Source of the DNA: Gordonia crocea
Lineage (GTDB): Bacteria > Actinomycetota > Actinomycetes > Mycobacteriales > Mycobacteriaceae
Assembly: GCF_009932435.1 (NCBI RefSeq)
Contig: NZ_BJOU01000019.1
Span: forward strand, 124,001 to 188,000
DNA: 64,000 bases
Direction of reading: 5' to 3'
Shown here piece by piece: positions 33,057 through 62,714 of the stretch. Each line of letters starts with the position of its first letter. The first letter of the stretch is position 1. The notes below the pieces were generated by a model that ran no database searches, was not told where the DNA came from, and saw only the letters and a list, made by a program, of their open reading frames with translations. Position numbers and translations under genes: made by a program.

Positions 33057-33073
33057 GCGGCGAGTCTCCGACC

Positions 33074-37305: not shown

Positions 37306-37349
37306 GGCCCGATCCTGCCAGATTCAGCCAACTGGGTGGGCGATTCATT

Positions 37350-37368
37350 CGTCTGGGTCACCCAGACG
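37350..37368. promoter_or_regulatory. Perfect 19-bp palindrome before the ten-gene operon
   Basis: CGTCTGGGT-c-ACCCAGACG is a perfect 9-1-9 inverted repeat ending 18 bases before the ATG at 37387. It sits in the divergent promoter region of the holin-like gene and the ten-gene operon. No regulator gene is within the operon, so an unlinked repressor or activator is implied. Confidence 0.65.
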
Positions 37369-37386
37369 CGCAGGACATGTGAAAAC

Positions 37387-38085
37387 ATGGCATCCGTGTC
37401 GTCGTTCAATCCGTTTGGTCAGGGTAATGACCCGGGCCAGTCGTCGCCCTCTGGAGCACCGTCGGGGTACCCGGGTGCGCCCCAAACGGGTCAGCCGGGT
37501 CCGGGTCAACCGGGGCCGGGTCAGCCGGGGCCGGGCTACCCGGGCCGGCATGTGCAGCCCGGGCCGGTTCAATCCGGTCCGCCCCAACCCCCGGCGCAGC
37601 CGGGGCAGTGGGTCCCCAACGCGGGGCCGCAGGCCACACCGGGCCGACACGAGGCCCCCGGTGGTGCGGGCGGGTTCGGCACGACGCCTTTTGACCACGG
37701 TGTTTCGACGGGAACCGGGGTCGACCCGGCCGACCCGCTCGCGCGCCGCCAATCCGGGTCGTCGGTTCCCGGCGGTAGCGCGATCACCATGGCCGAGCCG
37801 CCGAACGGGTTGCTGATTGCGGCAGCGGTGCTGGCCGCGGTCGGTGGAATCATCGGCGCGATCGGCTGGGGTCACTGGTGGTCCCTGCTGGGCTGGGTGT
37901 TGGCCGGCCCGTTGGCCATCTGGTTCGTCGCGCGGTTCGTCGCCGTCGACACCGAGCGCAAGACCGCTACGGTGTACTCGCGACCCGGGTCCACCGGGGT
38001 GCTGTGGGCGGTGGCGATTGCTTTGGTCGTCATCGGGATCGCGGTGACGGCGTTGGCCGTCGGATTCTGGGTCGGGCGGTTGTGA
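37387..38085 (+). CDS. Operon gene 1: Pro/Gly/Gln-rich tail plus three membrane helices
   Basis: The 232-residue protein starts MASVSSFNPFGQG. Residues ~8-135 are low complexity with PGPGQ repeats and few hydrophobics. Three hydrophobic helices follow (residues ~139-158, 161-180 and 207-228), ending WVGRL. I recognise no enzymatic motif. Similar tails recur in operon genes 2, 3 and 9, with (N/D)PF motifs. The stop overlaps the next ATG (TGATG). No strong ribosome site precedes the ATG. A membrane docking subunit is a fair guess. Confidence 0.75.
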   Translation: MASVSSFNPFGQGNDPGQSSPSGAPSGYPGAPQTGQPGPGQPGPGQPGPGYPGRHVQPGPVQSGPPQPPAQPGQWVPNAGPQATPGRHEAPGGAGGFGTTPFDHGVSTGTGVDPADPLARRQSGSSVPGGSAITMAEPPNGLLIAAAVLAAVGGIIGAIGWGHWWSLLGWVLAGPLAIWFVARFVAVDTERKTATVYSRPGSTGVLWAVAIALVVIGIAVTALAVGFWVGRL

Positions 38086-40898
38086 TGGCAAGGGGGATTC
38101 ATCCGGTGGCGGATTCGCGATCAGTCGTGGCCAGGTGGTTCGCCGTCGTCGCGCTCGCGGTGCTGCTGGCGCCGTTGGGCCTGCTGCTCGGCGCGGCCCA
38201 TGCCGAACCGGCTGATGGCGACGCCGCCGTCTCCCGGTTCGCGTCGTGTGTGGCCGGTCAGAAGAACGGCCAGGTGCTGTTCCTCATGGACGAATCGCTG
38301 AGCCTGCAGAAGTCCGACGCCACGGCGGCCCGGGTGGCCGCCGCGAAGGAACTCGCCCGCCAGCTGCGCATGGTCGCCGAGCGCGACGGCACCCGGCTGG
38401 ACCTGTCGGTGGCGGCCTTCGCCGACGGCTACCGGGTGATCACCGACTGGACCGAGCTGAACGCGAACTCGATGGGTGCGGTGACCGCCGGTCTGGACAA
38501 GCTGGGGCAGAGCAACACCGGGCGCGACACCGACTATGCGACGGCCCTGGCCAACGCCGCGTCGGCGCTCGCCGCCAAGCGCCGGCCCGATGCCGCGGCC
38601 GGGTGCCAGATGATCGTCTGGTTCACCGACGGCGCGCTCGACTTCGACTACCAGAACCGCGGCCGGGTCGACAAAGAGTTCGCCCCCGGCCAGCAGCTCA
38701 CCAGCCCGGCCGATCGCGACGCGATGAAGAAGGCCGCCGAGCAGAGCATCTGCCGGCCCGGCGGAATCGCCGACCAGTTGCGCTCGGCAGGGGTCATCAC
38801 CGTCGCCATCGGCCTCGACGCCCAGTCCCGCGCCTCGGACTTCGACCTGTTGCAGGCGATCGCCACCGGGAAGTCGGATGGCGGCCGCACCTGCGGGTCG
38901 ATCACCCAGCCGGTGCCGGGGGCGTTCTACCGGGTCACCGACATCGACGAGTTGGTGCGCGCCTTCGCCACGATCGGCGGCGGCGCCGGCGTGGAGACCA
39001 AGCGCGGAGCCTGCCCGAACAACCGGGTCTGCGAAGACGCCAAGCACCGCTTCGTCCTCGACGAGTCGGTGTCGAGCGTCAGCATCATCGCCGACGCGAC
39101 GACGACCGGCCTGATCCCGGTCCTGGTGGCGCCAGACGGGTCCGAGCACCGCCTCGAGACCGGGAAACCGGGGAAGGTCGACATCGCCGGAACCGCGGTG
39201 AGTTATTCCTCGCCGAGTCCGAAGTCGGTGTCCATCGAGATGGCGGCCGCCGACGCGAAGAAGTGGCGCGGTGTCTGGGCCCTGGTGTTCGTGTCGCCCG
39301 ATCAGACGGTGAGCGCACAGACCCAGTCCAACATCCGGATCTACGGAGATCTGGCGCCGGCGTGGCCGGCCTATGGCAATTACAAGTTGCGGGCCGGCGA
39401 CAAACTTGCCCAGTTCAACTTCGTCGTGACCAACAAGAGCAACCAGACCGTCGCGGTCGAGGCGTTGCCGGGCACGGTCTCCTTCGACGCCGGGTTGGTC
39501 ACCCGCGGTGGCCAGACCGTCACGATCGCCCGCAACCTGCCGAAGAACAAGGTGACGCAGACGCAGACCGCCGACCTGTCCAAGGTCGCGCCCGGTCCGG
39601 CGATGCTGCGGATGAAGCTCGCGGTCACCACCGCGCCGGCGCGCGACTCCCGGGGCAAGCTGGTCCCCGGAACCCCGTTGGTGCCCAAGGGCGTCGACCT
39701 GCCGGTGACGATCAACCCGCCGGCCGGGTACCCCCAGGTCGCCTCGCGCGTCGACTTCGGCACGGTCACCGGTTCCGGCGAGGCGACCGTCGATCTGGAG
39801 TTCCACGGTCCGGGCTGCGTCTGGGTGGCACCGCAGGGCGCCACCAAGGTGGAGGCGTCGCCGAGCGGCACCGATGGGCTGAACGTGACGTCGACGGCGA
39901 CCAGCGCGAAGAACTGCGCCTCGGACCCCGGGGCGGGGGAACAAGGCAAGTTGCCGCTCACCCTGCACGTCCCGAACCAGGGGCGCGGCGACGTCGGCGG
40001 CACCGTGACCGTGATGGTCGCCAAAGCGGACGGCCAGGGCGAACCCCGGGCCATGCAGGTCCAGTTCAGTGCGACCCTGGCCAAGCAGCAGGATGCGGCC
40101 AACACCCTGCTGGGCATCCTCGCTGCGCTGATCCTGGGCCCGCTTGTGCCGCTCGGCCTGGCGTACCTGGCCAAGTGGTGGACGGCGCGGATCCCCGCGC
40201 GCTCGCTGCGCGCCGAGGTCATCCCGGTGACGATCAGCGGGTCGTCGGTCCTGCGCGACGGTGAACCGTTCGCCTTCCGCGACAACGACTTGGTCCGCAT
40301 GGTCCCCGGTACCGCGGCACCGACGCGACACCTGGCGATCGATGGGATCTCGCTCGACACCCGCGTCGGGCGGTCGCCGTTCGGCACCGGCTACGTCGTG
40401 GCCAGCGCGCCCGGGATGATCGGGGCGGCGGGCAAAACCGGCGACAGCGTCGGACCCGCGCCGGATGCCCGGCTCCCGCTCAACGTCCACAACCGGTGGT
40501 TCGTCTTGCACAACCCCGGCGGGCCCGCCGATCGGGCCGATGTGGTGGTCCTCGTGGGCGACGACGCCGGGTCGGTGACGCTGGAACGCTTCAGCGAGGA
40601 GATCACCGAGTCGGTGGGTACCGTGGTCGCCACGCTGCGCCAGCAGGCCGGCGCTCCCGCCGCCACCGGCGAGTCGCCGGATCCGTTCGGCCGGGCGGGT
40701 GGGGTGCCCGGTGGCGATCCGTTCGCCGCGCAGCCACCGCCGCCGCGGCCGGGTTCGTTCGGCCCGCCGCAGGGCGGTCCGGTTGGTCCGCCGCAGAGTG
40801 GTCCGCCGCAGGCCGGTCCGCCGCAGGGCGGCCCGGGTGGCCCCCCGCAGGCCGGGCCCGGTGGCCCCCCGCGCGACTACAACCCGTTCGACAACTGA
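38085..40898 (+). CDS. Operon gene 2: exported VWA-domain protein with membrane anchor and cytosolic tail
   Basis: The 937-residue protein has a signal peptide (WFAVVALAVLLAPLGLLLG, likely cleavage AHA|E). A von Willebrand A domain spans residues ~55-310, with MIDAS D69-E-S71-L-S73, a later threonine (GRDTDYAT) and the FTDGALD aspartate. Beta-rich domains follow, then a helix at ~674-698 (LLGILAALILGPLVPLGLAYL). The cytosolic end is Pro/Gly-rich with DPFG, DPFA and NPFDN. The VWA domain should face outward and bind a metal-dependent ligand while the tail contacts cytosolic partners. An MIDAS-type sensor or adhesin of a conflict/stress system is inferred. Confidence 0.85.
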   Translation: MARGIHPVADSRSVVARWFAVVALAVLLAPLGLLLGAAHAEPADGDAAVSRFASCVAGQKNGQVLFLMDESLSLQKSDATAARVAAAKELARQLRMVAERDGTRLDLSVAAFADGYRVITDWTELNANSMGAVTAGLDKLGQSNTGRDTDYATALANAASALAAKRRPDAAAGCQMIVWFTDGALDFDYQNRGRVDKEFAPGQQLTSPADRDAMKKAAEQSICRPGGIADQLRSAGVITVAIGLDAQSRASDFDLLQAIATGKSDGGRTCGSITQPVPGAFYRVTDIDELVRAFATIGGGAGVETKRGACPNNRVCEDAKHRFVLDESVSSVSIIADATTTGLIPVLVAPDGSEHRLETGKPGKVDIAGTAVSYSSPSPKSVSIEMAAADAKKWRGVWALVFVSPDQTVSAQTQSNIRIYGDLAPAWPAYGNYKLRAGDKLAQFNFVVTNKSNQTVAVEALPGTVSFDAGLVTRGGQTVTIARNLPKNKVTQTQTADLSKVAPGPAMLRMKLAVTTAPARDSRGKLVPGTPLVPKGVDLPVTINPPAGYPQVASRVDFGTVTGSGEATVDLEFHGPGCVWVAPQGATKVEASPSGTDGLNVTSTATSAKNCASDPGAGEQGKLPLTLHVPNQGRGDVGGTVTVMVAKADGQGEPRAMQVQFSATLAKQQDAANTLLGILAALILGPLVPLGLAYLAKWWTARIPARSLRAEVIPVTISGSSVLRDGEPFAFRDNDLVRMVPGTAAPTRHLAIDGISLDTRVGRSPFGTGYVVASAPGMIGAAGKTGDSVGPAPDARLPLNVHNRWFVLHNPGGPADRADVVVLVGDDAGSVTLERFSEEITESVGTVVATLRQQAGAPAATGESPDPFGRAGGVPGGDPFAAQPPPPRPGSFGPPQGGPVGPPQSGPPQAGPPQGGPGGPPQAGPGGPPRDYNPFDN

Positions 40899-40931
40899 CC
40901 CGATCTAGTCCGTGAAGAGGATTGAAACCAG

Positions 40932-43900
40932 ATGAAGCGTTTTCTCGTCGTCGGCTGCGGTGGTTCCGGTGGGGCCGCGCTGGCCTACATGATGGACCAG
41001 CTCGAGTCCGACCTCCGTGCGCACGGCATCAACCGGCTGCCGGCCGGTTGGCAGTTCGTGCACCTCGACGTGCCCACGTCGCCGTCGCCGGTTGCCGGTG
41101 TCGGGACCGTGCCCGACCACGGCGGGGTCTACGTCGGCACCGGACCCGAGAGTGACGGCTACAAGGTCCTCGACAACGCACTGTCGCAGCGGTTGATCGC
41201 CAACAACGCCCTCGACACCATCGCGACCTGGGCCCCGCGCGAGCCGGAGCAGGTGTACACCCCGCTCTCCACCGGTGCCGGCCAGTACCGCGCGCTGGGG
41301 CGCATGATCACGCTGAGCCGCGTCGACACCGTGCGCAAGGCGCTGCAGCGGTCCTGGGACACGCTGTTCGCCAACTCCACCGACACCGAGATGCGGTCGC
41401 TGAAGATCCCGGGTGCGGGACCGTACAGTTCCAACGACCAGCCGATCGTCCTCGTCGTCTCGTCGATGGCCGGCGGCGCCGGTGCCTCGATGGCGCTGGA
41501 CATCTGCCGCATCCTCACGCTGGTGCAGGGCGTCGATCCGCGCCTCATGGGCGTGTTCATGGTGACCCCGGACATCTTCGAGTCGCTCGACGAATCCGCC
41601 ATCACCGGGACCCGGGCCAACGCCCTGGCCATGCTCGGCGAGATCGTGGCCAGCCAGACCGGCTCGGCGCGGGAGAGCGACGTCGAGTTGTTGCGCGCAC
41701 TCGGGCACGAGCACGGTGAGGGGGAGCGGATCCCGTTCGCCCGCGTCTTCCCGATCGGCCGCTATGTCGGTGCACAGCGGACCGTCTTCGGCGACGGCAC
41801 CCCGGGTGCGGTGTACCGCGGGCTCGGCCGAGGGTTGGCGGGCATGGTCCTGTCCGGCTCGGCCACCCAGCAGTTCATCGAGTGGGACCTCACCAACCAG
41901 ACCGGCGACCAGGGGTCGCTGGAGTACCTCGGGTGGGGCAACAAGCAGTGGAACAACATCCCGTGGGGAACCTTCGGCTACGCCAGCCTGTCGATGGGCC
42001 GCGACCGCTACGCCGAGTACTCGGCGCAACGGTTGGCGCGCAGCAGCATCGACAAGCTGCTGCACGGCCACGTCCAGCCGGGCAACGACGCCTCCGATGA
42101 GGAACAGGTCAACGCCATCCTCGACAACCAGTGGAGCAACATCTGCCATTCGCTGGGACTGCCCGACGGCGCCGACGGATCGGCGGCCGTCGTCGCACCG
42201 TGGTTGACCCACACCGTGCTGCCCGGCGACCAGGTGGTCGCGCAGTCGCGCAACGTGGTCAACGCCTGCGTGCGGCCGATGATCGACCAGACTCCCGGCA
42301 TCAACGGGGAGCAGTGGTCGGCGCGCGTCGGACAGGTGCTCGTCGAGCAGCGGCACAACCTCGCGGAGGGGGCCAACGCGGCGGCGTACCACGACGCCTT
42401 CGTGTGGCACCAGAACTTCGTCGCCCACCTCGAGCAGGCCACGTCCCGGGCGCTGGCCACCCAGGGGCTGCCGTATGCGACCGGTCTGGTCAAGCGCGTC
42501 GCCCGCCTCCTCGACGACGTCTTGCTACCGTCGCTGACCGACCTGTCGAAGTACGGGCCGGCCGATATCGCCGACCTGCCGCCGGAGACCAAGGGCACGC
42601 TGGCCGGGCTGTCGGGCACCATCACCAACCCGGCGCCGATCGCCGACGAGGTGTTCGCGGGTTCGGCGCGCACCGTCGAGCGCCAGATCTACGCCGCGCT
42701 GGCACACCACGTCGGCAATGCGTGCGGTGCGATGATCACCGAGGTCTTCGACCCGCTGATCGACGCGCTCAACGAAGCGCAAACCCTGCTGCGGCAGGCC
42801 GCAGGGGCGAACCGGCAGCAGGTGGGCCTGGCCCAGTTGCAGACCGAGGAGTACGCGGCCTGGCCGGCCGACTCCGACGAGCTGGTGGCCGAGCGCTTCT
42901 CCGAGGCGGACAACGAGGTCATGCTGACCCGCTCGGCGGAGTTCAAGCAGCGCTACGAGATCGACCTGCCCGCCTCGGTCGGTGCGACCAGCACCGACCC
43001 GCGCCTGCTGGGCGAGGGCATCTCCCGCGCGGCGGGCCACGTCATCACCGGGTATTGGACGACTCTCGACGGGACGACGTCGCCGGCCGACGAGCGCGCC
43101 GTCGTCGAGCGGACCACCACCTGGGTCTCGCGGGCCTTCCCGCGGCACCCGGAGACCGGTGACGGTTTGATCGCCCAGCGGGCCAGCTACGACGTGCACC
43201 TGCGCCCGGGAGAACTGCTGGGCCGCGCCCGGCGCTTCGTCGGGCGCACCGGCGAGTCGTTCGACCGGTTCTGCTCGGTCTCGCTGCGCGAGTACGTGGA
43301 GGGCTATGACGCGCCGGAGTCCGAGCGGGCCGCCCGCCGCAGCGACCTGGAGCTGCGCTTCATCGAGGCCGTCAACCTCGCCCGCCCCCTCGCCAGCGTC
43401 AACGAGAACGCGATGCAGGCCATCCACGGCGTCGCCGAGATGGTGTACCGCTACAAGTTCTCCGCGATCCCGTTCCAGGGGCTCCCGGTCGCCGAGAACC
43501 TGATGGCCGGGCTGAACTCCACCGCGCGCGTGGACAAGAAGAGCGGGGACGCGGTCAAGAACGCCCTCACCGACGAGGCGAAGATCAAGCGCATCGACAT
43601 CTTCGGCTCCTATCCGAACTACTCGCCGCTGGCCTACGAGGCGGTCATCGAGCCCGCCGCGCGCCAGTGGTTGGCGTCGTCGCCCGGTCAGCGCAAGGCG
43701 TTCTGGACCATGCGCCGGAGCCGGCCGCTGGAGGCCAGCCTGCCGATGCACGAGAACGAGCGGCGCGCGATGGTGGCCGGATGGATCCTCGGCCAGGCCC
43801 TCGGGTTCATCCAGGTGCCGCCGCCGCCGTTCACCGACGCCGTGCACGTGTGGGATACCGAGGACCGGCGCTGGCTGGCCTTCCCCAACCCGTTGCTGAC

Positions 43901-44717
43901 CCCGCAGTCGGAGTTCCTCGCCGACTACGACTGGCTGCCCGCGGTTCTGGAATCGGTGCTGCTGGCTATCGCGCAGAGCCACAAGCCGCCGGTCATGTCG
44001 TCGATGGCGCCGTACCGCGCGCTGCGCCACATCTACGACGCCGGTGCGGAGAACCCGGCGTCGGGGCTGGACCAGCGCCAACTCGCCGCCGCGGTGAACA
44101 TGGCGAACTGGCTGCGCAACGGCGAGACCGGGACCGGTGTGGCGTCGGCCATCCCGGATTCGGGGCCGGGGCTCTCGATCCGCGACCGCGCCGAGAAGCT
44201 GCGGGCTTACTTCGCCTACCAGAACGACTTCGTGTCGAAGAACTACATGGAACCGGGCCAGGGCTCGAGTCCGGGTCATCCCGGCGCCGACGGCACCGGG
44301 GTGTTCGCCCGGATCACCGTGCGCCAGCAGGCGTCGAAGACCCCGATCTACCGCGACGTCGCGCCGGATGTCTTCTGGGCGACCAACGAGTTGGCCGGCC
44401 TGGTCGACGCGGCCGTGGCGATCGCCGAGCAGGGCACGGTGGCCCCGGCACCCGCCCCGAACTTCCAGGGCGGCGACACCTACCAGGTGCCGTCAATGGA
44501 TCCGGCCGCGGCCTTCACCCAGGAACCGTCGGCCCAGCCGCCGGTGCCGCCGACGGCCCAGCCGCCGGTGCCGCCGACACCCCAGCCGCCGACGTCATCG
44601 CCGTATGCGCCACCGGCCCCCGAAACGGGGCCGGGCACGCCCGGCGGGCCGCAGGGCCAGGGCGGGCCCAACCCGTTCGGAGGTTTGCAGTCCCCTGAGC
44701 AGCCGGGCGGGTTCTGA
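40932..44717 (+). CDS. Operon gene 3: tubulin/FtsZ-like giant protein
   Basis: The 1261-residue protein starts MKRFLVVGCGGSGGAALAYMMD with a glycine-rich nucleotide loop at residues 8-14. A second element VSSMAGGAGASMALDICR (180-186 core) matches the tubulin signature loop GGGTG(S/A)G in modified form. This is the pattern of the Tubulin_2 family of large actinobacterial tubulin-like proteins. The middle ~900 residues are helical without known domains. The last ~80 residues are Pro/Gln-rich and end PNPFGGLQSPEQPGGF. It probably binds GTP and may polymerise or act as a GTP-dependent scaffold. Ribosome site GAGG lies 12 bases before the ATG. Confidence 0.85.
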   Translation: MKRFLVVGCGGSGGAALAYMMDQLESDLRAHGINRLPAGWQFVHLDVPTSPSPVAGVGTVPDHGGVYVGTGPESDGYKVLDNALSQRLIANNALDTIATWAPREPEQVYTPLSTGAGQYRALGRMITLSRVDTVRKALQRSWDTLFANSTDTEMRSLKIPGAGPYSSNDQPIVLVVSSMAGGAGASMALDICRILTLVQGVDPRLMGVFMVTPDIFESLDESAITGTRANALAMLGEIVASQTGSARESDVELLRALGHEHGEGERIPFARVFPIGRYVGAQRTVFGDGTPGAVYRGLGRGLAGMVLSGSATQQFIEWDLTNQTGDQGSLEYLGWGNKQWNNIPWGTFGYASLSMGRDRYAEYSAQRLARSSIDKLLHGHVQPGNDASDEEQVNAILDNQWSNICHSLGLPDGADGSAAVVAPWLTHTVLPGDQVVAQSRNVVNACVRPMIDQTPGINGEQWSARVGQVLVEQRHNLAEGANAAAYHDAFVWHQNFVAHLEQATSRALATQGLPYATGLVKRVARLLDDVLLPSLTDLSKYGPADIADLPPETKGTLAGLSGTITNPAPIADEVFAGSARTVERQIYAALAHHVGNACGAMITEVFDPLIDALNEAQTLLRQAAGANRQQVGLAQLQTEEYAAWPADSDELVAERFSEADNEVMLTRSAEFKQRYEIDLPASVGATSTDPRLLGEGISRAAGHVITGYWTTLDGTTSPADERAVVERTTTWVSRAFPRHPETGDGLIAQRASYDVHLRPGELLGRARRFVGRTGESFDRFCSVSLREYVEGYDAPESERAARRSDLELRFIEAVNLARPLASVNENAMQAIHGVAEMVYRYKFSAIPFQGLPVAENLMAGLNSTARVDKKSGDAVKNALTDEAKIKRIDIFGSYPNYSPLAYEAVIEPAARQWLASSPGQRKAFWTMRRSRPLEASLPMHENERRAMVAGWILGQALGFIQVPPPPFTDAVHVWDTEDRRWLAFPNPLLTPQSEFLADYDWLPAVLESVLLAIAQSHKPPVMSSMAPYRALRHIYDAGAENPASGLDQRQLAAAVNMANWLRNGETGTGVASAIPDSGPGLSIRDRAEKLRAYFAYQNDFVSKNYMEPGQGSSPGHPGADGTGVFARITVRQQASKTPIYRDVAPDVFWATNELAGLVDAAVAIAEQGTVAPAPAPNFQGGDTYQVPSMDPAAAFTQEPSAQPPVPPTAQPPVPPTPQPPTSSPYAPPAPETGPGTPGGPQGQGGPNPFGGLQSPEQPGGF

Positions 44718-47398: not shown

Positions 47399-47402
47399 AC
47401 GA

Positions 47403-49832
47403 ATGGTGTCCAGTCACAATATGGCCGCCGCGCTGGAGCAGTGGGCCGCCGGTGTGGCCGCCAGCGGTCGGGCGGCGCCGGCCGATCGCGAACTCGAGGC
47501 GATCGCCCGCCGTCCCGACACGTGGCGCACCGATATCAACGCCTCGGCGGAGGCGCAGTATTGGGGGGCGACGATCGACCACCTGATCGGCCAGGTCCGG
47601 CTCGGCGTGCTGCCGACGATCGCCGTCGCGCACGTGCCGTCCGGTCTCGAGCCGGCCGAACCGCCGCCGGCACCCGCACCGCCGCCCGAGGACCCCGCCG
47701 CGGGCCGCCACTGGGCGTCGACGACCGGGCCGACCGCGGTTCCGGCCGCCGCCGAGCCGACCGGTGACCCGGTGGAGGAACTGACCGCCGCCCTCATCGC
47801 CTGGCGCGGGGCCAAGATCGCCGAAGGCGCACCGGGGGCCGAGACGATCAAAGACCTGACGCTGCGGAACCTGGCCAAACGGACCCCGGTGACCGCGGAG
47901 CAGCTTCGCAAGAAGCTGCCCGGCGCCGGCGCGTTGGTGGAGGAACTGGCCGGAGTCTTCGCCCGGTTCGGCGGAGCCGAGTCCGCGCCGGCCCCGGCCG
48001 GACCAGCAGCTGCCGCCCCCGCGGCGACAGCACCCACCCCCGCGGCGGCGGCACCCGCCCCCGCGACGGTGCCGCCGGCCCAGCCCACCGAGGCACCGGC
48101 GCCGTCGGTGGCACGATCAGTGGCCGTGGATCCGGATCTGCGGCCGCTGACCCACGCCGACTTCCCCGAGTACCAGTACCTGACGTCCGAGCACGAACCC
48201 GGGCCGATCACCATCGCCACCACCCCCGACGGGGTGCGGCTGAGTTGGGAGCCGTGCCGTGAGGCCGCGGCGGTCATCTACCGCGTCGTCTCCGGCGACG
48301 GGCCGATCGGGCCACACAAGCCCGAGGCCGGTGAGCAGGTGGTCGTCACGGTCGGCACGTCGGCGGAGGATTCACGGTTCCTCACCTCGGCCGTCCGCTA
48401 CTTCCAGGTGTGGGCCCACCTCGGCGACGACGAGGGTTCCGCCCGAGCGGCCCAGCCGGTCAAGTGGGCGGTGGGCGAGGAGATCAGCCCGGTCGAGGAC
48501 ATGCGGTTGACCGAGGACGAGGGACGCGTCGTCGGGGAGTGGTCGGCATTCGACGGCACGCAGGCCGTCCGGGTGTTCCGGATCCCCCTCGACGAGGGCG
48601 GCCCGATCACCACCGATCCGCGCTACCAGATCAGCGTGGCCGACTTGAACCTCAACGGCTTCGTCGACGCGGAGGCCCCGCGCGGGCGCCGCTACCTCTA
48701 CCGGGCCCAGGCGGAGGTCCCCGTCGGGAACCAGTTGCGGCTCTCGCGCCCGGCGCAGCAGGAGATCCTGGTCTCGGTCAAACTGACCCCGATCGACGAC
48801 CTCGACGTCTCGATCAGCGAGACGAATTCCCAGTTCGACCTGACGTGGACGACACCGGAGGGCGGACAGGAGGTCCGCGTCTACCGGTTCCAGCAACCAC
48901 CGCCGGCCGGGCTCGAGCGCGAGGACTTGGCCCTCGACGCGCTGTCCCCGCAGGGCTTCAACGATGCGACCCGCGTCCGGCACCCGGTGAAGGCCGGCGC
49001 CGATCCGACGCACTCGCAGATGTCGGGTGTGCCGTGGCCGAGCGGGTGGGATCGCGCCTACCTGACCCCGGTCACCGTCGCGTCCGGCAAGGCGCGGATC
49101 GGCACGACGCAGGTGTTGGCGCGGCCGCTGGCGGCCGTCGTCGACCCGCACATCATCGAACGCTTCCACTGCGAGATGATCACCTTCGGGTGGCCGCGGG
49201 GGGCTGCGGCGGTGCGGGCCTACATCGGCCAGCCCGGTGTCCCGGCCGAGCAGTTGTGCCACGGACGGCCATTCGGCGAGGTGAGTGCCGAGCAGTACGA
49301 GCGCGACGGTGCGCTCATCCTCGCCCGGCCACTGACCCTGAAGGGGTGCCAGGTCGTGTTGGTCGCGGTGTCATACTCGGCGGGGCGGGAGATCGTCGGC
49401 GAACCGGTCGGGATCGTGTACCCCGGACTGGCCCGGATCGCCTATAACCTGGAGCTGCAACCGTCGGCTCCGCGCCACGTCGTCCGGTTGATGCTGCACA
49501 GCGAGTCGCCGGTCACCGACCTGCCGCCACTGGTCCTGGTCCACCGTCCGGACCGGTTGCCGCTCGATCCGACCGACGGCCGCACCTTGCGGTTCTATTC
49601 GGAACGGACGCAGCAGCAGGTGCCCCACTGCCAGGTGGACGGGGAACTGGTGCCCGGCCGGATGTCCACCGAGTGGGTGGTCGACCTCACCGACTTCACC
49701 GGATACGTTCGGCTGTTCGTCCACGACGGCAGCCGTGCGGGTCGTCGCCCGATCGCACTGCTGGACCCGCCGATGGGAGTGCTGCGGTTGGTCCCGCAGC
49801 CGCCGCCCCCGGCGCCCGAGGCCCAGTGGTGA
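47403..49832 (+). CDS. Operon gene 5: HRDC-like plus fibronectin-III-like protein
   Basis: The 809-residue protein (MVSSHNMAAALEQW; ATG at 47421 is an alternative) has a helical N-terminus. A ~65-residue HRDC-like domain lies near residues 120-190 (VEELTAALIAWRGAKIAEG, LRNLAKRTPVTAEQLRKKL). An Ala/Pro linker follows, then several FN3-like beta-sandwiches (DGVRLSWEPCREAAAVIYRV; FDLTWTTPEGGQEVRVYRF). HRDC domains bind nucleic acid or act as adaptors in helicases. No helicase motifs are present, so an adaptor joining nucleic acid or a partner to the GTPase complex is inferred. Confidence 0.72.
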   Translation: MVSSHNMAAALEQWAAGVAASGRAAPADRELEAIARRPDTWRTDINASAEAQYWGATIDHLIGQVRLGVLPTIAVAHVPSGLEPAEPPPAPAPPPEDPAAGRHWASTTGPTAVPAAAEPTGDPVEELTAALIAWRGAKIAEGAPGAETIKDLTLRNLAKRTPVTAEQLRKKLPGAGALVEELAGVFARFGGAESAPAPAGPAAAAPAATAPTPAAAAPAPATVPPAQPTEAPAPSVARSVAVDPDLRPLTHADFPEYQYLTSEHEPGPITIATTPDGVRLSWEPCREAAAVIYRVVSGDGPIGPHKPEAGEQVVVTVGTSAEDSRFLTSAVRYFQVWAHLGDDEGSARAAQPVKWAVGEEISPVEDMRLTEDEGRVVGEWSAFDGTQAVRVFRIPLDEGGPITTDPRYQISVADLNLNGFVDAEAPRGRRYLYRAQAEVPVGNQLRLSRPAQQEILVSVKLTPIDDLDVSISETNSQFDLTWTTPEGGQEVRVYRFQQPPPAGLEREDLALDALSPQGFNDATRVRHPVKAGADPTHSQMSGVPWPSGWDRAYLTPVTVASGKARIGTTQVLARPLAAVVDPHIIERFHCEMITFGWPRGAAAVRAYIGQPGVPAEQLCHGRPFGEVSAEQYERDGALILARPLTLKGCQVVLVAVSYSAGREIVGEPVGIVYPGLARIAYNLELQPSAPRHVVRLMLHSESPVTDLPPLVLVHRPDRLPLDPTDGRTLRFYSERTQQQVPHCQVDGELVPGRMSTEWVVDLTDFTGYVRLFVHDGSRAGRRPIALLDPPMGVLRLVPQPPPPAPEAQW

Positions 49833-49836
49833 TGTG

Positions 49837-52689
49837 ATGGCCGACTTGACCAAGCGCCCCGCCGAGGCCCCCCGCCGGGCACCGTCCGGGGCCGGCAGAC
49901 CCGTGTCCGTCGACACGGCGAGATTCGCCCAACTGACCTACACCTCCTTCGACGGCGGTGCGCCCGCCGGCGGCGCGGCGCTGGGCGGTCCCGGGACCGG
50001 TCAGCGCAGTCACGGGGGCGGCTGGCAGGTCAAGCAGGTCGTCGGCGACCTCGATCCCGCCTACGTCGACGCCCTGACCGCCCGCATCGTCACCCGGTTC
50101 GACCTCGAACCGGCCCTGCCGGCATTCCCCACCCCCGACCAGATCGCCGACCGTCCGGCCCGGCTGGTCTACGCCGTGCTGGAGGCCGATGGTGGGCGTC
50201 CCGCGGCGTTCTGGCACACCGTTGACGCCGGGCGCGACGGCACCGGCCGGCCGGGAAACGTGTTCGCCCACCTGCTCGCCACCACCACCGCCGCCGACGC
50301 GGCTCCGGTCGGCGGGGCGGTCCGGATGGGGCTGCGGCCGATCGAGCTGTGGCGCTGGCCGGGGTGGCTGAACCCCTACGGGCCCGAGGCGGTGAAAGCC
50401 GCGGTGTTGCCCGCCGGACCTCCGGCGTTGGCCCCCAATCCGGCGCTGTCCGCGTCGTCGGTCGTCGCCTTCCTCCTCGATCCGAGCCGCGACCGGCTCG
50501 GCGTCGTCCGCGTCCTGCTCGACGCGGTGGCCGCGCGGATGGCCGGCCAGACCCGCGGCCCCGTGGTGCTCGCCGTCGGCGACCACGACCGGGCGGCCTC
50601 CTGGATCGCCGCGGTCAGCCACTTCCTCACCGCCGCCGGAGCCGAGCAGTTCTGCTGGAGCACCCACGACGCGCCGGAGGCGGTCGCCGCCGGGGCGTGC
50701 GCCGACCTGCACCTGGTCTGCGTGCCCCGGACGCGGATCGGCGAGATCGCGGGCCATGCGGGAACGGCCGTCCTCATCGACGAGAACGAAGAGCCCTACC
50801 TGGGCGACCCCGGGTCGGCACACCGTGTGGCGGCGGGCACCGTCGAGGTGACCGCGTTGTCGGTGCTCGCCGAAGCGGTGTTGGCCGACCAGGACATCGC
50901 CCTGCGGGTGCTGGGCCGGCGCGACCAGATCGCGGTCGACTTCGAGGACCGCCCCGGCGGGGCGGCGGGCACGCTCGCCCCGGAATGGCCGATTGCGATC
51001 GCCGTCCTCGAGGAGCCCGAGCTCGCGGAGTTCCACGCCGATGCCGCCGCCGTCCTCGTCGACGAGGCCCCCGACGGCCTGTCCGACGTCGACTGGGCGG
51101 CCGAACTCGTCGAATCGACGCTCCGCGCCAACCCGCCGACCCCCGACGATGCGCTGCGTCGCCTGGCCGCCGCGGCCCGGCGGGGACGGGGTACCGAACT
51201 GTTGGCGACCCGGGTCGTGGACGCGGCGGTGCGCGATCCGGACTGGTTCGACGGCTGCGACCTCTCCGTGGTCCCCACCGTCCACTCCGTGCCGATGGGC
51301 GGGCTGCGCGCCGCGGTGACCGATCGGTGCGGGGCGTTGACGCCCGAGGCGCCGGGGGCGACGCGCGCGGCACTGCGGCTGGCCGAGACCATCGAGCGGC
51401 TGGGCGCGCCCGGCGTCGACCTCGACGCGGTCCGCGGCGAGGTGGCGGGGGCCGTGCGGCGGACCGGACTGGCCGACATCGGCCCGGCGGGGTGGGCGGC
51501 CGCGGTCGGCGCCGAGGATCTGTCCGCCTCGACGGTGGCGGACTACGTGCGGCCGGTGTTCGCGGACAAACCGGCCGGCGAGTTGTCCGCGATGGACACC
51601 GACGTCGCCCTGTGGCTCTACCGCGGCGACGAGGGCGTGCGGTATGCGAGTCCGGCGGAGTTCTCCGAGGTCGACGACTACCTGTTCGGGTTCGCCACCT
51701 GCGCGGTCCTGCGGGATCGGGCACTGGGGATCCCCGCCGATGCGCGCACCCTGTATGCCGGCGAGGGGATTCGGGCGGCGCTGCGCTCGGCGCGGCTCGA
51801 CGACGGCGAGTGCCGCGAGTTGGTGGGCGAGATCGTCGCCGAACAACGCCCGTCGGCCGTCGATTTGCTGGAGTTCTCCGCGTCCACCGGCCGAGTGCCG
51901 CCGCAGATCCTCGATTCGCTGGTGTTCTACGGCGAGGTGGAGGACGGCGCGCTGCGCGCCATCCTCGACGCTCCCGGTGCCGCCTCACCGGAACTGGTGG
52001 CCGCGTCCTGGCTGCGGCTCGCGCGGCGCACCGGCCCGGTCACCGACCGGGACCGCTGGTGCGACAGCGTGGCGGCGCTGGCCGAATCGGCGTCGAGTTC
52101 GACGCGGGCCGGGGCACCGGTCACCTGGGTGGCGCAGGCCGCCGACGAACTGGTGGTCATGGCCGCCGCCGGCTTCGTCGTCGGGCAGAGCGTGGGCGCC
52201 CCCTGGGCCGATCCGGACTCGGGCTTCTGTGCGGCCCTGCGCGAACGGATGGCCGGCACACCGGGAAGCGTCGGGCTGTACGCCCCCGTCGTCGAGGAGT
52301 TGTCGCGCGCCGAGCAGGGCTGGGTTCTCGACACCGCCTGGGTGGCCGGGCATTCGCTGACCGTCATGATGGGGTTGCCCGGCGCGGGTGCCGGGCCGTT
52401 GGGCGGGTTGGGATCGCCGTCGATCCGCGAACCCGGCCAACTGGTGCCCTGGTCGATGGCGATCATCGAAGAACGCGGCGCGTCCGGGTCGTATCGCGGA
52501 CCGGTCGACGTGATCGGCGTGCGCGATGCGGCGTGGCTCGTGGTCCGCAACCTCGAGGCCGCGGCCGCCGAACGATTTTTCACCGACTACCGCAGAACAG
52601 CGGACGATTGGTTGGTCCGCGTCGGGGTACCGGCGCGAACCACAGGACCGGCGGCACACGGCCCGTCGGGCCGGGGAGGACTGGGTTAG
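49837..52689 (+). CDS. Operon gene 6: GTPase-associated protein 1 (GAP1)-like
   Basis: The 950-residue protein has near residues 27-160 the motif set FAQLTYTSFD...GGGWQVKQVVGDLD...GRPGNVFAHLLA. This is how I recognise the N-terminal domain of GTPase-associated protein 1, predicted as an adaptor for GTPase-centred conflict systems. A middle domain (~190-320, LLDAVAARM...VVLAVGDHDRAASWIAAVSHFL) and a long helical C-terminal part follow, in line with GAP1-M and GAP1-C. It lies three bases before the small VWA gene and two genes before the GTPase. Assignment to the family is from memory, not a profile search. Confidence 0.75.
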   Translation: MADLTKRPAEAPRRAPSGAGRPVSVDTARFAQLTYTSFDGGAPAGGAALGGPGTGQRSHGGGWQVKQVVGDLDPAYVDALTARIVTRFDLEPALPAFPTPDQIADRPARLVYAVLEADGGRPAAFWHTVDAGRDGTGRPGNVFAHLLATTTAADAAPVGGAVRMGLRPIELWRWPGWLNPYGPEAVKAAVLPAGPPALAPNPALSASSVVAFLLDPSRDRLGVVRVLLDAVAARMAGQTRGPVVLAVGDHDRAASWIAAVSHFLTAAGAEQFCWSTHDAPEAVAAGACADLHLVCVPRTRIGEIAGHAGTAVLIDENEEPYLGDPGSAHRVAAGTVEVTALSVLAEAVLADQDIALRVLGRRDQIAVDFEDRPGGAAGTLAPEWPIAIAVLEEPELAEFHADAAAVLVDEAPDGLSDVDWAAELVESTLRANPPTPDDALRRLAAAARRGRGTELLATRVVDAAVRDPDWFDGCDLSVVPTVHSVPMGGLRAAVTDRCGALTPEAPGATRAALRLAETIERLGAPGVDLDAVRGEVAGAVRRTGLADIGPAGWAAAVGAEDLSASTVADYVRPVFADKPAGELSAMDTDVALWLYRGDEGVRYASPAEFSEVDDYLFGFATCAVLRDRALGIPADARTLYAGEGIRAALRSARLDDGECRELVGEIVAEQRPSAVDLLEFSASTGRVPPQILDSLVFYGEVEDGALRAILDAPGAASPELVAASWLRLARRTGPVTDRDRWCDSVAALAESASSSTRAGAPVTWVAQAADELVVMAAAGFVVGQSVGAPWADPDSGFCAALRERMAGTPGSVGLYAPVVEELSRAEQGWVLDTAWVAGHSLTVMMGLPGAGAGPLGGLGSPSIREPGQLVPWSMAIIEERGASGSYRGPVDVIGVRDAAWLVVRNLEAAAAERFFTDYRRTADDWLVRVGVPARTTGPAAHGPSGRGGLG

Positions 52690-52692
52690 TTA

Positions 52693-53670
52693 ATGGCTAC
52701 ATATGTCTTGGACGGGAAGTCCGCGGCCACGCTGGCGCGCCGGCCGCTCGCGGTGCGGCTGGCGGTGTCGGGAACGCCGACGACCGGCGGGGTGCGCCTG
52801 GTTGCGCGGACCCCTGACGGCCAACCGTCGACCGCCGTGGTGGAGACCGCGCCGACGATGCTCATCCTGCCGCACGTCACCGACGAGATCGTCATCGGCG
52901 CCGTCCCGCAGGGAGGCGATCTGTTCGCCCCGGGGACCACGGTGCACGTGTCGATCGGCCCCGACAGCAACACCGAGTTCGACGCCGACGTCGCCCAGTT
53001 GACGCCGCGCGACGTCTCCGGTCTGGGCTTCATCAAGCTCGCCAGCGTCGCGCCGGGTGGCGCCGACACGGTGACCGTGACCACCTGGCTCACCCGCCCG
53101 GACTCCAAGCTCCCGCCGGTGGCCGAGGCCGCGCGGGTCGCCGCCCGCGGCGTGCTCAACGTCGACCAGGTGCACGAGAGCCGGGCCCTGCCGGTCCGCC
53201 TCGTCGTGGATGCCTCGGCGTCGATGGCGCCGCTGTTCGCCTCGGGGATGGTGGCCGCGGCCGCCGACCTCGTCGCCGGACTGGCCGAGGTGGTCTCCGG
53301 TTCCTCGCAGATCACCCTGGGAGCCATCGGTCCGTCGGCACCGCCGCCGGTGCCGACGGCGACCGACGGCGCGGGCGCGGCGCTGGCCGCGGGGCCGTCG
53401 ATCGGCTACGGCTTGAGCGGCGGGCCCGCGGTGCCGGCGGCCCCGGGAACGCTGACGGTGGTGCTCACCGACTCGGTGCCCGCCGATCCGATCACCGCCG
53501 ACCAGGTGGTGCTGGTCCTGTCCGGGGCCCGGCCGACCACGGCGGTCCGCGGGTCGGTCCTCGCCCCGGTCGACAATCCGGTGGCGGCGTTGACGGCCGC
53601 ACCCACCGTCGTGACGCGCGTGGTCAGCGAACTCCTCGCCCCGTTCTCCCTGGCCGGAGGTGCGCGTTGA
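52693..53670 (+). CDS. Operon gene 7: small cytosolic VWA-like protein with MIDAS
   Basis: The 325-residue protein has an N-terminal beta-rich domain of ~150 residues (LAVRLAVSGTPTTGGVRLVART). A VWA-like domain follows, starting LPVRLVVDASASMAPLFASGM, with MIDAS D173-x-S175-x-S177. The later part has TVVLTDSVPAD, which could supply the third MIDAS aspartate. No signal peptide is present, so it is cytosolic. It overlaps the GTPase start by four bases. A metal-dependent adaptor role next to the GTPase is likely by analogy with VWA-ATPase/GTPase pairs. Confidence 0.8.
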   Translation: MATYVLDGKSAATLARRPLAVRLAVSGTPTTGGVRLVARTPDGQPSTAVVETAPTMLILPHVTDEIVIGAVPQGGDLFAPGTTVHVSIGPDSNTEFDADVAQLTPRDVSGLGFIKLASVAPGGADTVTVTTWLTRPDSKLPPVAEAARVAARGVLNVDQVHESRALPVRLVVDASASMAPLFASGMVAAAADLVAGLAEVVSGSSQITLGAIGPSAPPPVPTATDGAGAALAAGPSIGYGLSGGPAVPAAPGTLTVVLTDSVPADPITADQVVLVLSGARPTTAVRGSVLAPVDNPVAALTAAPTVVTRVVSELLAPFSLAGGAR

Positions 53671-54815
53671 CCAAGTGCCCCCGGTGCTTCTCGACCCTCA
53701 GCGTCGACGACACCGTCGCGTGGGTGGATCGCGAACCCGCCCAGGTCTCCGTCGACCGCGTGGCCTCGGAATACGCCGGCCGCGAGGTGCGGATGGGCCC
53801 GGTCACCGTGGCACGCCGCCACGAGTGGCGCGGCGAATGGCCGCCGGCGCCGGAGCGCCCGAGCAACCCGGTCTGCCCGGTCTGCCACTTCGCGTTGCCG
53901 CAGTTCTGGTACCACGGCGAGGCCACCTGCATCACGATGGCCGGGGCCCGCGCCACCGGGAAAACGGTCTACATCGCCGTCCTGATCAAGCAACTGCAGC
54001 GGTTCGCGGCCCGGCTCAACCGCGAGGTCTTCCCGGCCAACGACGAGACGGTGCGCCGGTTCCGCGACGAGTACGAGCGGCCGTTGTTCACCGAACGCGG
54101 CATCCTGCAGCCGACGCCCCGGGCGGCGCTGCACGGCAGCTATCAGCACGACCCGCTGATCTTCAACCTCGGCGAGTGGGGCGGGCGCCGGCACTACCTG
54201 GTGATCCGCGACGTGGCGGGGGAGGACCTCGAAGCCGCCGACGTGGGCGGCCGGGCCTGGGAGTTCTTCTCCCGCGCCGACGCCGTGCTGTTCCTGTTCG
54301 ACCCGTTGTGCGTCGGCGAAGTCGCCAACCAGTTGCGCGACCTCGTCCCGCCGCCGTCGAGCCTGGGTGGCGACCCGCGGCAGGTGCTGCACACGATGAC
54401 CAACCTGATCGGCAACGGCGCGCCCAAGCTGGCGGTGATCCTGTCGAAGTTCGACGCCCTGCAGGCGTTGTCGGTCGTCGAGGCGAGTGCGTGGGGGCAG
54501 GTGATGGCCCAACTCGGTGCGGCCTACAACCGCGACCCCGGGCTGTTGGCGCGCGGCTACGACGAGAACGACGGGCAGGCCCTGCACGAGGAGGTGCGCA
54601 GCCTGTTGACCAGGCTCGACGCCGGACCGGCCTTGACCACCATGGTCAACCCGACCACCGGCCGGCAATACAACCACCGGTTCTTCGCGGTGTCCGCGCT
54701 CGGTGCGTCGCCGGAAGGGGAGAAGCTCAGCGACCGTGGCATCTCGCCGTTCCGCGTGACCGATCCGGTCCGCTGGGTGCTCGCCGAGCGCGGTGTCATG
54801 GTGGAAGGCGCGTGA
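53667..54815 (+). CDS. Operon gene 8: zinc-ribbon P-loop GTPase (double-GTPase-2-like)
   Basis: The 382-residue protein starts at TTG with GGAGG six bases upstream, inside the end of gene 7. Two CxxC pairs (KCPRC near residue 4 and VCPVC near residue 72) form a split zinc ribbon. Then Walker A GARATGKT (93-100), a Walker-B-like RDVAGED (181-187) and the NKxD-equivalent SKFD (260-263) follow. This layout fits TRAFAC GTPases of the type annotated as double-GTPase-like in conflict systems. It would be the energy-using switch of the operon, with GAP1 as partner. No membrane segment is seen. Confidence 0.83.
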   Translation: MTKCPRCFSTLSVDDTVAWVDREPAQVSVDRVASEYAGREVRMGPVTVARRHEWRGEWPPAPERPSNPVCPVCHFALPQFWYHGEATCITMAGARATGKTVYIAVLIKQLQRFAARLNREVFPANDETVRRFRDEYERPLFTERGILQPTPRAALHGSYQHDPLIFNLGEWGGRRHYLVIRDVAGEDLEAADVGGRAWEFFSRADAVLFLFDPLCVGEVANQLRDLVPPPSSLGGDPRQVLHTMTNLIGNGAPKLAVILSKFDALQALSVVEASAWGQVMAQLGAAYNRDPGLLARGYDENDGQALHEEVRSLLTRLDAGPALTTMVNPTTGRQYNHRFFAVSALGASPEGEKLSDRGISPFRVTDPVRWVLAERGVMVEGA

Positions 54816-55471
54816 TGAGCACTCCAGGATTCCGCGGACCCGACCCGTTCGCACCCGGTCCGGGCGGTGCGGTCCCCCATGCCGGCGCGGCCCCGAATAC
54901 CGGTGGGCAGTACGCCGGTGGGCCCAACCCGGGATTCGGGGGCCAGGGTGCGCCGACCGCCTACCCCGGACAGCCGGCCTCGTCGCCAACCGGCCCGGCC
55001 GGGCAGTCGCCGATCCCGGTGCGCCGGTCGTCACCGCCGGTCACCGTGTGGTTGGCGTTGGCCTGCCTCGTCGCAGCCGCCGGGCTGTGCGTCGCGCAGG
55101 CCGTCCTGGGGATCCGGGCGGCGAGCCGCTCCGATGTCGACGACGCCCAGGTCCACTACCTCGGGTTCGAGGTCGCCGACCTGTCGACCACCGCGATCGT
55201 GTTCACCGTGCTGCTCGCCCTCGTGTTCGCCCTGGGCTACCTCGGCTTCGGGTACGCGGTGTGGCGCGGCCAGTCGTGGCCGGCCCCGCTCGGATCGGTC
55301 CTCGCCGCCTTGTCGCTCTTCGGTTTGATGGGCGGCCCGCTGATCATCGCCCTCGTCGTCGTCGGCATCCTCGCCGTCGTGTTCCTGTGGTTGCCGCCGT
55401 CGCGGGAGTTCGCCCGTCAAGGGTCGCCGACCGCACCGCCGACCGCCTTCGATCCGTGGGGAGCACGCTGA
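54815..55471 (+). CDS. Operon gene 9: small membrane protein with disordered N-terminal tail
   Basis: The 218-residue protein starts MSTPGFRGPDPFAPGPGG. A ~70-residue Pro/Gly-rich tail precedes about four helices: ~76-98 (VTVWLALACLVAAAGLCVAQAVLG), ~120-150 as one or two segments (STTAIVFTVLLALVFALGYLGFGY) and ~160-195 (LGSVLAALSLFGLMGGPLIIALVVVGILAVVFL, two short segments). The end is AFDPWGAR. It shares the tail style and DPF motif with genes 1, 2 and 3. Stop/start overlaps occur at both ends. Function unknown; a membrane platform is inferred. Confidence 0.75.
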   Translation: MSTPGFRGPDPFAPGPGGAVPHAGAAPNTGGQYAGGPNPGFGGQGAPTAYPGQPASSPTGPAGQSPIPVRRSSPPVTVWLALACLVAAAGLCVAQAVLGIRAASRSDVDDAQVHYLGFEVADLSTTAIVFTVLLALVFALGYLGFGYAVWRGQSWPAPLGSVLAALSLFGLMGGPLIIALVVVGILAVVFLWLPPSREFARQGSPTAPPTAFDPWGAR

Positions 55472-55983
55472 TGGCCAACCGCAGGGGCTTGCAGAAAGTC
55501 AGCATAGGCGTCGGCTGGGACCTCCAGCCCGCCGGTGCCCAACTCGACCTCGACCTGGCCGCATTCGCGCTGCCCGTGGGCGGAACCGTCGATTCCGACC
55601 AGGACTTCGTCTTCTTCAACAACGTCACCGCGTGCGGCGGCGCCATCCGGCTGACCTCCGATTCGGCCACCTTCCAGGGGTGGAAGGAGGAGATGGTGAT
55701 CGACACCGCCGCGCTGCCCGCGCGCATCGAACGCGTCGTCGTCTCGGTGTGCTCGTATGCCGGGGAGGCGCCGTTCGGCCGGTTCCCCGCCGGGGCGGTC
55801 GAGCTGTGGGATTCCGACGCCGGCCAACTCGCCCGGTGCGACCTCTCGGCGCAGTTCGCCGACAAGTCCGCGCTCGTCTACGCCGACCTGCGCCGCGACG
55901 GCGACCGGTGGGTGTTGTTCGCCCGCGCCGAGCCCTACGACGACCTGGCGTCGATCGCCAGGTCGATGGGCGTCAAGGTGTAG
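55471..55983 (+). CDS. Operon gene 10: TerD-family protein
   Basis: The 170-residue protein shows the TerD fold: VSIGVGWDL.....QLDLDLAAFAL, DSDQDFVFFNN, IERVVVSVCSYAG, VELWDSDAGQLARCDLSAQFADKSALVYADLRRDGDRWVLFA. TerD proteins bind Ca2+ through acidic loops and belong to tellurite-resistance/Ter stress systems; VWA-domain proteins and Ter domains often sit together. It ends 11 bases before the -35 of the infA promoter, with no terminator between, so read-through into infA is possible. Confidence 0.92.
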   Translation: MANRRGLQKVSIGVGWDLQPAGAQLDLDLAAFALPVGGTVDSDQDFVFFNNVTACGGAIRLTSDSATFQGWKEEMVIDTAALPARIERVVVSVCSYAGEAPFGRFPAGAVELWDSDAGQLARCDLSAQFADKSALVYADLRRDGDRWVLFARAEPYDDLASIARSMGVKV

Positions 55984-55993
55984 CGAGCCCGAA

Positions 55994-56023
55994 TTGGATC
56001 GGCCGCCCCGCTTCGCGTAAGAT
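55994..56023 (+). promoter_or_regulatory. infA operon promoter
   Basis: TTGGAT (55994-55999) and TAAGAT (56018-56023) are separated by 18 nt. The start would be near 56030, leaving a ~60-nt leader. The promoter begins eleven bases after the terD stop codon. Confidence 0.72.
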
Positions 56024-56091
56024 GGATCGCTGGTGCGCGTATGCGCGCCTACCACTACCACCAGGCCCGATGGGCCGGGAGCGCGGAGGAC

Positions 56092-56313
56092 ATGGCAAAG
56101 AAAGACGGTGCCATCGAGGTCGAGGGTCGCGTGGTCGAGCCCCTGCCCAATGCGATGTTCCGCATTGAGCTGGAGAACGGACACAAGGTTCTCGCCCACA
56201 TCAGCGGGAAGATGCGGCAGCACTACATCCGCATCCTGCCCGAGGATCGCGTGGTCGTCGAGCTTTCGCCCTATGACCTCGGCCGTGGACGAATCGTCTA
56301 CCGGTACAAGTAA
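56092..56313 (+). CDS. infA: Translation initiation factor IF-1
   Basis: The 73-residue protein starts [23 protein letters not shown] with GGAGG upstream (gcgGAGGAcATG). The S1-like OB fold is complete, ending [14 protein letters not shown]-1 occupies the ribosomal A site during initiation. A longer in-frame GTG/ATG at 56041 is not used by any relative I know. Confidence 0.98.
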
Positions 56314-62712: not shown

Positions 62713-62714
62713 CC

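Follow-up and report, generated by a model that had tools for sequence, protein, structure and literature searches.

What does a tubulin-like protein do when it is encoded, together with nine other proteins, in the middle of the ribosomal-protein genes of an actinobacterium? The question is raised by a tightly packed operon of Gordonia crocea, which we analysed in a stretch of 64,000 nucleotides (assembly GCF_009932435.1, contig NZ_BJOU01000019.1, positions 124,001 to 188,000; hereafter the window) of the 3.78 Mb source genome. Its genes, here g1 to g10, occupy positions 37387–55983 on the plus strand. An earlier examination of this DNA (the sequence-only reading) had listed ten plus-strand genes overlapping or separated by no more than 33 bp. 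All ten are present among the open reading frames of the window, and the largest intergenic gap, 33 bp, separates g2 from g3. By most features tested, the operon belongs to the actinobacterial GAP1-N2/DO-GTPase tubulin systems, and in this case it is coupled to TerD. We propose that it encodes a membrane-tethered, GTP-switched assembly answering envelope insult, a reading to which we assign a probability of about one half.

Relation to the GAP1-N2 tubulin systems

A Pfam profile search was run on all ten operon proteins (Table 1). The vWA, tubulin, GAP1, GTPase and TerD domains of the sequence-only reading were recovered in g2, g3, g6, g8 and g10, respectively. The zinc ribbon it had assigned to the GTPase corresponds to two CxxC pairs N-terminal to the GTPase domain of g8, and these cysteines are 98–100% conserved among homologues. 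For g1, g4, g5, g7 and g9 of the window no Pfam family scored above its cut-off, and NCBIfam yielded no family above its cut-off. Functional residues are intact across the collected homologues, namely the glycine loops of g3 and, in g8, both CxxC pairs and all three GTPase motifs. The residues of the metal-ion-dependent adhesion site (MIDAS) are likewise conserved in g2 and g7. The cytosolic vWA protein proposed for g7 has its MIDAS and the lack of hydrophobic segments in its favour, but its Pfam vWA match stays below threshold. The HRDC/FNIII assignment of g5 fared less well, with no Pfam match in the window; of the four homologues scanned, L166 alone matches HRDC, and weakly so (E 0.045). 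In g2, the vWA domain (residues 64–183) lies between hydrophobic segments at 11–29 and 675–693, and the protein is probably outward-facing; an FNIII domain was without a Pfam match in g2.

This domain set resembles a class of systems that was predicted by Kaur et al. (2020, eLife 9:e52696; PMC7159879). In the parts of that paper considered here, GAP1-N2 systems are listed for 904 organisms (Table 1 therein), about 52% of their neighbourhoods are centred on tubulins, and a conflict role is predicted for the GAP1-N2 tubulin systems. The actinobacterial version comprises one tubulin, an HRDC-FNIII protein, a membrane vWA-FNIII protein, GAP1 and a zinc-ribbon GTPase. With these systems the operon shares GAP1-N2 plus GAP1-M, the zinc-ribbon DO-GTPase, one recognisable tubulin, the membrane vWA protein and a protein in the FNIII/HRDC position. 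The operon differs by TerD, the tailed membrane proteins, an eight-gene core that includes g1, g4 and g7, a helical insert within the tubulin fold (by model), shared tail motifs and a possible second tubulin. A term search of the main text of PMC7159879 found TerD once, for another system, and no NPF, DPF, PknH or proline-rich; the passages considered do not name g1, g4, g7, a TerD link of the tubulin theme or shared tail motifs.

No experimental work on GAP1-N2 tubulin systems was found among open-licence PubMed Central (PMC) papers. Literature searches on SCO2368/tdd8, TerD with tubulin, Tubulin_2 in Gordonia/Rhodococcus and NPF motifs returned nothing on such an operon beyond PMC7159879. 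That the system is not yet characterised, as the sequence-only reading had suggested, thus holds for experiments, but not for the kind itself, which had already been predicted in 2020. Within the literature searched, several features appear to be new, most notably the coupling to Ter, the tail code and a possible second tubulin.

A fixed core of eight genes

Profiles of the ten genes were run over 92 stretches, consisting of the window, 22 stretches collected by Tubulin_2 and 69 collected by g4. Matches were obtained for g1 in 79, g2 in 83, g3 in 88, g4 in 88, g5 in 85, g6 in 82, g7 in 81, g8 in 82, g9 in 20 and TerD in 39 stretches, the counts for g3 and g4 being partly by construction because the stretches were collected by Tubulin_2 or g4. 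After nine stretches duplicating others had been dropped, a g4 homologue was present at 79 non-redundant loci. All eight genes from g1 to g8 are present in 62 of them, always on one strand, and the exact order is kept in 58. The remaining 17 comprise 13 loci cut by the end of the contig or stretch and four that have diverged according to our own reading (G051, G198, G087 and L204). TerD was found within the stretch in 31 of the 79 loci and g9 in 14. Hence, g1 to g8 constitute the core, with TerD and g9 as options. Co-occurrence of the genes across genomes, on which the sequence-only reading had beforehand staked its proposal, is evident from these counts, and the arrangement exceeds what chance would give. 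The family of g4, which that reading could not name, has no Pfam family and is nevertheless a regular part of the system (18 of the 22 Tubulin_2-collected stretches, window excluded).

The four stretches without g4 all come from a single further family of the order (f14), in which a GTPase-profile match lies near the tubulin; a further f14 carrier, G204, is outside the set. In G192 (L070, 7461–17306), one of these four, a more distant tubulin system has a large transmembrane protein right after the tubulin, in the position of g4, and the tail of its vWA-position protein ends in NPFA.

Among 249 genomes of the order, 11 have Tubulin_2, as do 20 of the 178 in a Mycobacterium genus sample, where 19 of the matches are strong. 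Within Gordonia it scores above cut-off in 14 of 59 genomes (15 at E ≤ 0.001), which rules out a universal housekeeping role in the genus. A search with g4 only detected 6 of the 249 genomes of the order. In a scan of named genomes, the 69 loci detected with the g4 family belong to Gordonia, Williamsia, Rhodococcus, Mycobacterium, Mycolicibacterium, Antrihabitans, Propionibacteriaceae, Microbacteriaceae, Arthrobacter relatives, Nocardioides, Humibacillus and a Pseudonocardia metagenome-assembled genome. In Rhodococcus, g4 homologues lie on two megaplasmids. As a side observation, a neighbouring gene recurs in 7 stretches; the copy of L151 (988–2133) contains GmrSD_C and Excalibur domains.

Table 1. 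Genes of the operon and edges of its insertion site (window coordinates; hydrophobic segments and motifs by residue number).
Feature	Coordinates	Strand	Description	Support
Left edge	37306..37386	.	Divergent intergenic region of 81 bp between the minus-strand gene (36895–37305) and g1; left edge of the insertion site	Gene map
g1	37387..38085	+	Membrane protein; Pro-rich N-tail, NPF at residue 8, three hydrophobic segments	
g2	38085..40898	+	vWA protein; Pro-rich C-tail, [ND]PF at 866, 878 and 933	vWA PF13519, 7.8e-11
g3	40932..44717	+	Predicted tubulin-like GTP-binding protein; Tubulin_2 at residues 5–373, long helical insert, end PGGF	PF13809, 2.8e-46
g4	44717..47398	+	Unnamed core family; hydrophobic segments 531–549 and 558–576 adjoining a long predicted helix	
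g5	47406..49832	+	Probable HRDC/FNIII-type protein, by position and the parts of PMC7159879 considered	No Pfam support
g6	49837..52689	+	GAP1	GAP1-N2 PF20013, 2.4e-15; GAP1-M PF20014, 6.2e-8
g7	52693..53670	+	vWA-like, without hydrophobic segments; MIDAS DASAS	Sub-threshold vWA match (0.026)
g8	53667..54815	+	DO-GTPase2; motifs GAR..GK, DVAGE and SKFD	PF19993, 28.1 bits (cut-off 27)
g9	54815..55471	+	Tailed membrane protein, optional; DPF at residue 10, three hydrophobic segments	
g10	55471..55983	+	TerD domain protein, optional part	PF02342, 3.8e-28
Right edge	55984..56094	.	TerD–infA junction, infA start taken at 56095; right edge of the insertion site	Gene map

Insertion site and history

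The sequence-only reading had placed the operon between translation gene clusters, and its surroundings agree. To the left lie secY, adk and map (31171–33874, named by eye), followed by a few minus-strand genes; to the right lie infA, rpsM, rpsK, rpsD and truA (by eye) as well as rpoA and rplQ (by Pfam). Consequently, the operon is located within the ribosomal-protein supercluster, between map and infA. Small genes after truA (62374–63328) give the impression, from their sequence, of the start of an ESX-type region.

The secY–rpoA interval of Gordonia, whole or partial, was compared by mapping its genes in 59 genomes. The operon lies between the minus-strand gene of the left edge and infA in seven Gordonia, and on stretches without map or infA in seven more (non-site). 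In 55 Gordonia both edges of the site are on one stretch, a count that leaves out G289, G258, G298 and G274. Less than 1 kb separates the edges in 26 of these genomes, this operon lies between them in 7, and other sequence of 1.2–15 kb in 22. The map–infA site is permissive for insertion in Gordonia. Other Gordonia species carry apparent mce-like or methylcitrate-cycle-like clusters (names by eye) at the site corresponding to window positions 36895–56313.

In a tree built from eight genes (5328 nt, 56–59 genomes per gene, midpoint root), the seven site carriers form one clade with an ultrafast bootstrap (UFBoot) value of 87 and no non-carrier inside, and all seven species keep the operon. Gordonia sequences group together in the g3 and g4 trees, with site and non-site copies separated, and the gene trees mostly track genera; L188, L198 and L204 in these trees are Propionibacteriaceae-type and Klugiella, not Mycobacterium. 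A single insertion followed by retention fits best for the site clade; losses or transfers have to account for the rest. A fast-moving defence island at this site is not supported, since the seven carriers are one clade and all its members carry the operon. Between the window and G286, the tubulin (86%) and the GTPase (88%) are level in conservation with SecY (87%) and Map (88%). The values for the other proteins are 83% (g4), 77% (g7), 76% (TerD), 75% (g5), 72% (g2), 64% (GAP1), 59% (g9) and 55% (g1).

These data bear on the rival view that the operon is an antiviral conflict system, in which FNIII/vWA parts would sense phage and a GTPase-driven tubulin assembly would contain the phage or halt the cell. 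We consider this unlikely, though worth serious attention. The conflict role predicted for such systems in the parts of PMC7159879 considered has to be set against the PADLOC anti-phage models, which matched none of the ten operon proteins. The patchy presence in Gordonia, in the Mycobacterium sample and in the order, together with the g4 homologues on the two megaplasmids, speaks for a conflict system, but the gene trees mostly follow the genera and every species of the site clade has kept the operon. GAP1 changes faster than tubulin and GTPase, yet the latter two are as conserved as SecY and Map, order and content of the core are constant, and no hypervariable effector was seen in it. Overall, slow evolution and retention in one clade slightly favour a stress role; patchiness and plasmids slightly favour a conflict role. 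A phage, a metal and damage to the envelope are candidate triggers.

Link to the Ter stress response

The Ter stress-response systems, as reportedly delineated by Anantharaman et al. in 2012, group TerD, TerC/DUF475, StiP, PELOTA, PRTase_2-TRSP and a C-C bond lyase. At three sister Gordonia loci (L047, L051 and L055) the neighbours of the core that were scanned include StiP-PELOTA, PRTase_2-TRSP, an AIM24 protein, a C-C bond lyase and TerD. Of the seven non-site Gordonia, six have a StiP-type neighbour. A further family, of which the member scanned is DUF475/TerC, was detected in 11 stretches. The operon thus has in common with Ter systems its TerD gene and, at the sister loci, Ter biosynthetic genes around the same core. 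In contrast, the window locus holds TerD alone: no Ter biosynthetic genes were recognised among its neighbours by the scan and by eye, although some of the flank frames in that scan were not the coding frames.

TerD is present in 39 of 59 Gordonia, namely in all 14 tubulin carriers versus 25 of the 45 others (Fisher p 0.0013, kinship uncorrected). In five site-clade genomes (G000, G254, G257, G286 and G290), the window genome included, the single TerD match is the one inside the operon. Since this copy is their sole TerD match, a cooperation of the operon TerD with the tubulin system is suggested. Three observations weaken this link. TerD occurs in only one (L149) of 30 mycobacterial stretches, which extend about 3 kb past the core at median; the control Corynebacterium glutamicum, which carries Tubulin_2, gave no TerD match; and the Fisher test ignores relatedness. 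From the first two of these, TerD is not obligate.

The Ter genes also bear on a second rival, in which the operon is a resident device of the cytoskeleton that serves cell shape, polar growth or the building of the envelope and has no conflict role. The slow evolution of g3 and g8, the full retention in the site clade, the tubulin fold of the g3 model (see below) and the position of the vWA protein in the membrane would suit such a device, but 45 of 59 Gordonia are without a match above cut-off and the link to Ter stress genes points elsewhere, so that we regard it as improbable.

Tail motifs

The tails of several proteins share the motif [ND]PF, i.e. NPF or DPF. Composition-preserving shuffles served as the baseline. 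The motif is present in 62 of 75 C-tails of g2 (167 motifs versus 5.5 in shuffles) and in 56 of 71 N-tails of g1 (78 versus 5.0). Tails of g4 are slightly enriched (9 versus 2.6) and those of g3 marginally (5 versus 2.3), and no enrichment was detected in the C-tails of g5, g6, g7 and g8. For comparison, [ND]PF occurs in the first 80 residues of 9 of 555 other flanking proteins, and in a same-genome gene sample at the N-end of 10 and the C-end of 7 of 332 proteins. The last residue is Phe in 60 of 79 g3 and 66 of 78 g4 sequences; the corresponding counts are 13 of 633 for flanking proteins and 10 of 332 for the genome sample.

Beside the mycobacterial core a family of tailed membrane proteins was detected (83 copies in 28 stretches, all mycobacterial; a BLAST cluster without a window member). 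With duplicates dropped, 69 of 78 carry [ND]PF in the first 80 residues, a tail of the kind seen in g1, g2 and g9. The one member scanned has a PknH_C-like extracellular domain. [ND]PF-tailed membrane proteins stand on both flanks of the mycobacterial core (G109, L170–L182; six in G109), with varied parts following the tail. It is possible that the varied parts behind the tails represent a sensor repertoire.

Several points count against a common tail code. Among Pro-rich C-tails of flanking proteins, 4 of 21 carry [ND]PF (11 motifs versus 0.5 shuffled); Pro-rich tails are therefore an imperfect contrast. The g3 protein of the window ends in Phe, but its g4 ends in MGQG, and g4 of some near relatives also lacks Phe. 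The shuffled-tail statistics ignore relatedness, so the counts are not independent events, yet they span several families. No protein that binds [ND]PF or the Phe terminus emerged from this analysis. A coupling of the N/D choice between g1 and g2 motifs was rejected as evidence of co-evolution, the correlation being weak (Spearman 0.32).

One tubulin or two

The structural model of g3 aligns over both tubulin domains and thus has the two-domain tubulin fold; by model, its helical part is an insert inside this fold. The best Foldseek rows for the g3 model are tubulins at probability 1.00, yet none reaches an E value below 0.001. In the part of PMC9871819 considered, Tubulin_2 proteins are divergent FtsZ-like outliers. 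This branch, the long insert and the operon context set g3 apart from CetZ, TubZ, FtsZ and tubulin, with which it shares the alignment over both domains and the conserved glycine-rich loops.

For the g4 model, VIA-align ranked 26 tubulin/FtsZ-type entries first. Judged from this model, g4 is a possible second, degenerate tubulin fold. Tentatively, and with somewhat more doubt than confidence, we propose that g3 and g4 form a new type of tubulin pair: g3 would be the active, GTP-binding member, and g4 a nucleotide-less, membrane-anchored one that is missed by sequence searches, both having a helical insert and a C-terminal Phe docking peptide.

Several results speak against a tubulin fold in g4. 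Foldseek searches of its model against the PDB and viral models gave nothing at E ≤ 0.001 and, unlike for g3, the best rows are not tubulins. Sequence homology between g4 and g3 was rejected (hhalign probability 0.1%). A sequence search for solved relatives of g4 yielded two matches (E 0.38 and 9.2), which both fall within the hydrophobic part. FtsZ and tubulin have a glycine-rich nucleotide signature of the GGGTGTG type, and it was not found in the alignment columns for residues 1–260 and 640–893 of 62 g4 homologues. Public databases label several g4 homologues (P0066, P0074, P0077, P0079 and P0085) as 'magnesium transporter'; g4 of the window has no supporting Pfam match above cut-off.

A further rival takes g4 for a membrane-active effector instead of a tubulin: on firing of the switch, its long helices with the hydrophobic hairpin (Table 1) would enter the membrane or change their arrangement there. 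The hydrophobic segments speak for this reading, as do the first 16 Foldseek rows of the g4 model, which are alpha-pore-forming toxin chains (E 6.2e-3 to 0.11, probability ≤0.54). Against it, these chains superimpose with TM-scores of ≤0.24 and a root-mean-square deviation of ≥25, a likeness of shared long helices only, and VIA-align puts the tubulin/FtsZ-type entries first. We regard this rival as very improbable.

Proposed mechanism and significance

For the membrane-tethered, GTP-switched assembly we propose the following arrangement. With its vWA domain outside and its tail inside, g2 would display [ND]PF peptides, as would g1 and g9, and the motif enrichment suggests that these peptides recruit cytosolic parts. 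The GTP-binding tubulin g3 may then assemble beside or on g4, its putative membrane-anchored partner, which would be in line with the modelled fold and the intact loops. The GTPase g8, the GAP1 protein g6 and g5 presumably form the on/off switch, whose threshold would be set by the GTPase–GAP1 pair. Adaptor or output functions are conceivable for g7 and TerD, the latter possibly acting as a ligand reader or as output.

GAP1-N2 systems are a large predicted class, and about half of their neighbourhoods contain a tubulin. With the eight-gene core, both tail motifs and the Ter link, what was a list of domains becomes a set of contacts that can be tested, namely readers of [ND]PF, readers of the terminal Phe and a nucleation of g3 by g4. 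If true, a membrane-anchored second bacterial tubulin would be a new coupling of receptors to a cytoskeletal polymer. In a g3–g4 pair of this kind, the receptor-coupled tubulin polymer would be nucleated on the membrane, and the common [ND]PF code would allow different outward-facing sensors to be plugged in.
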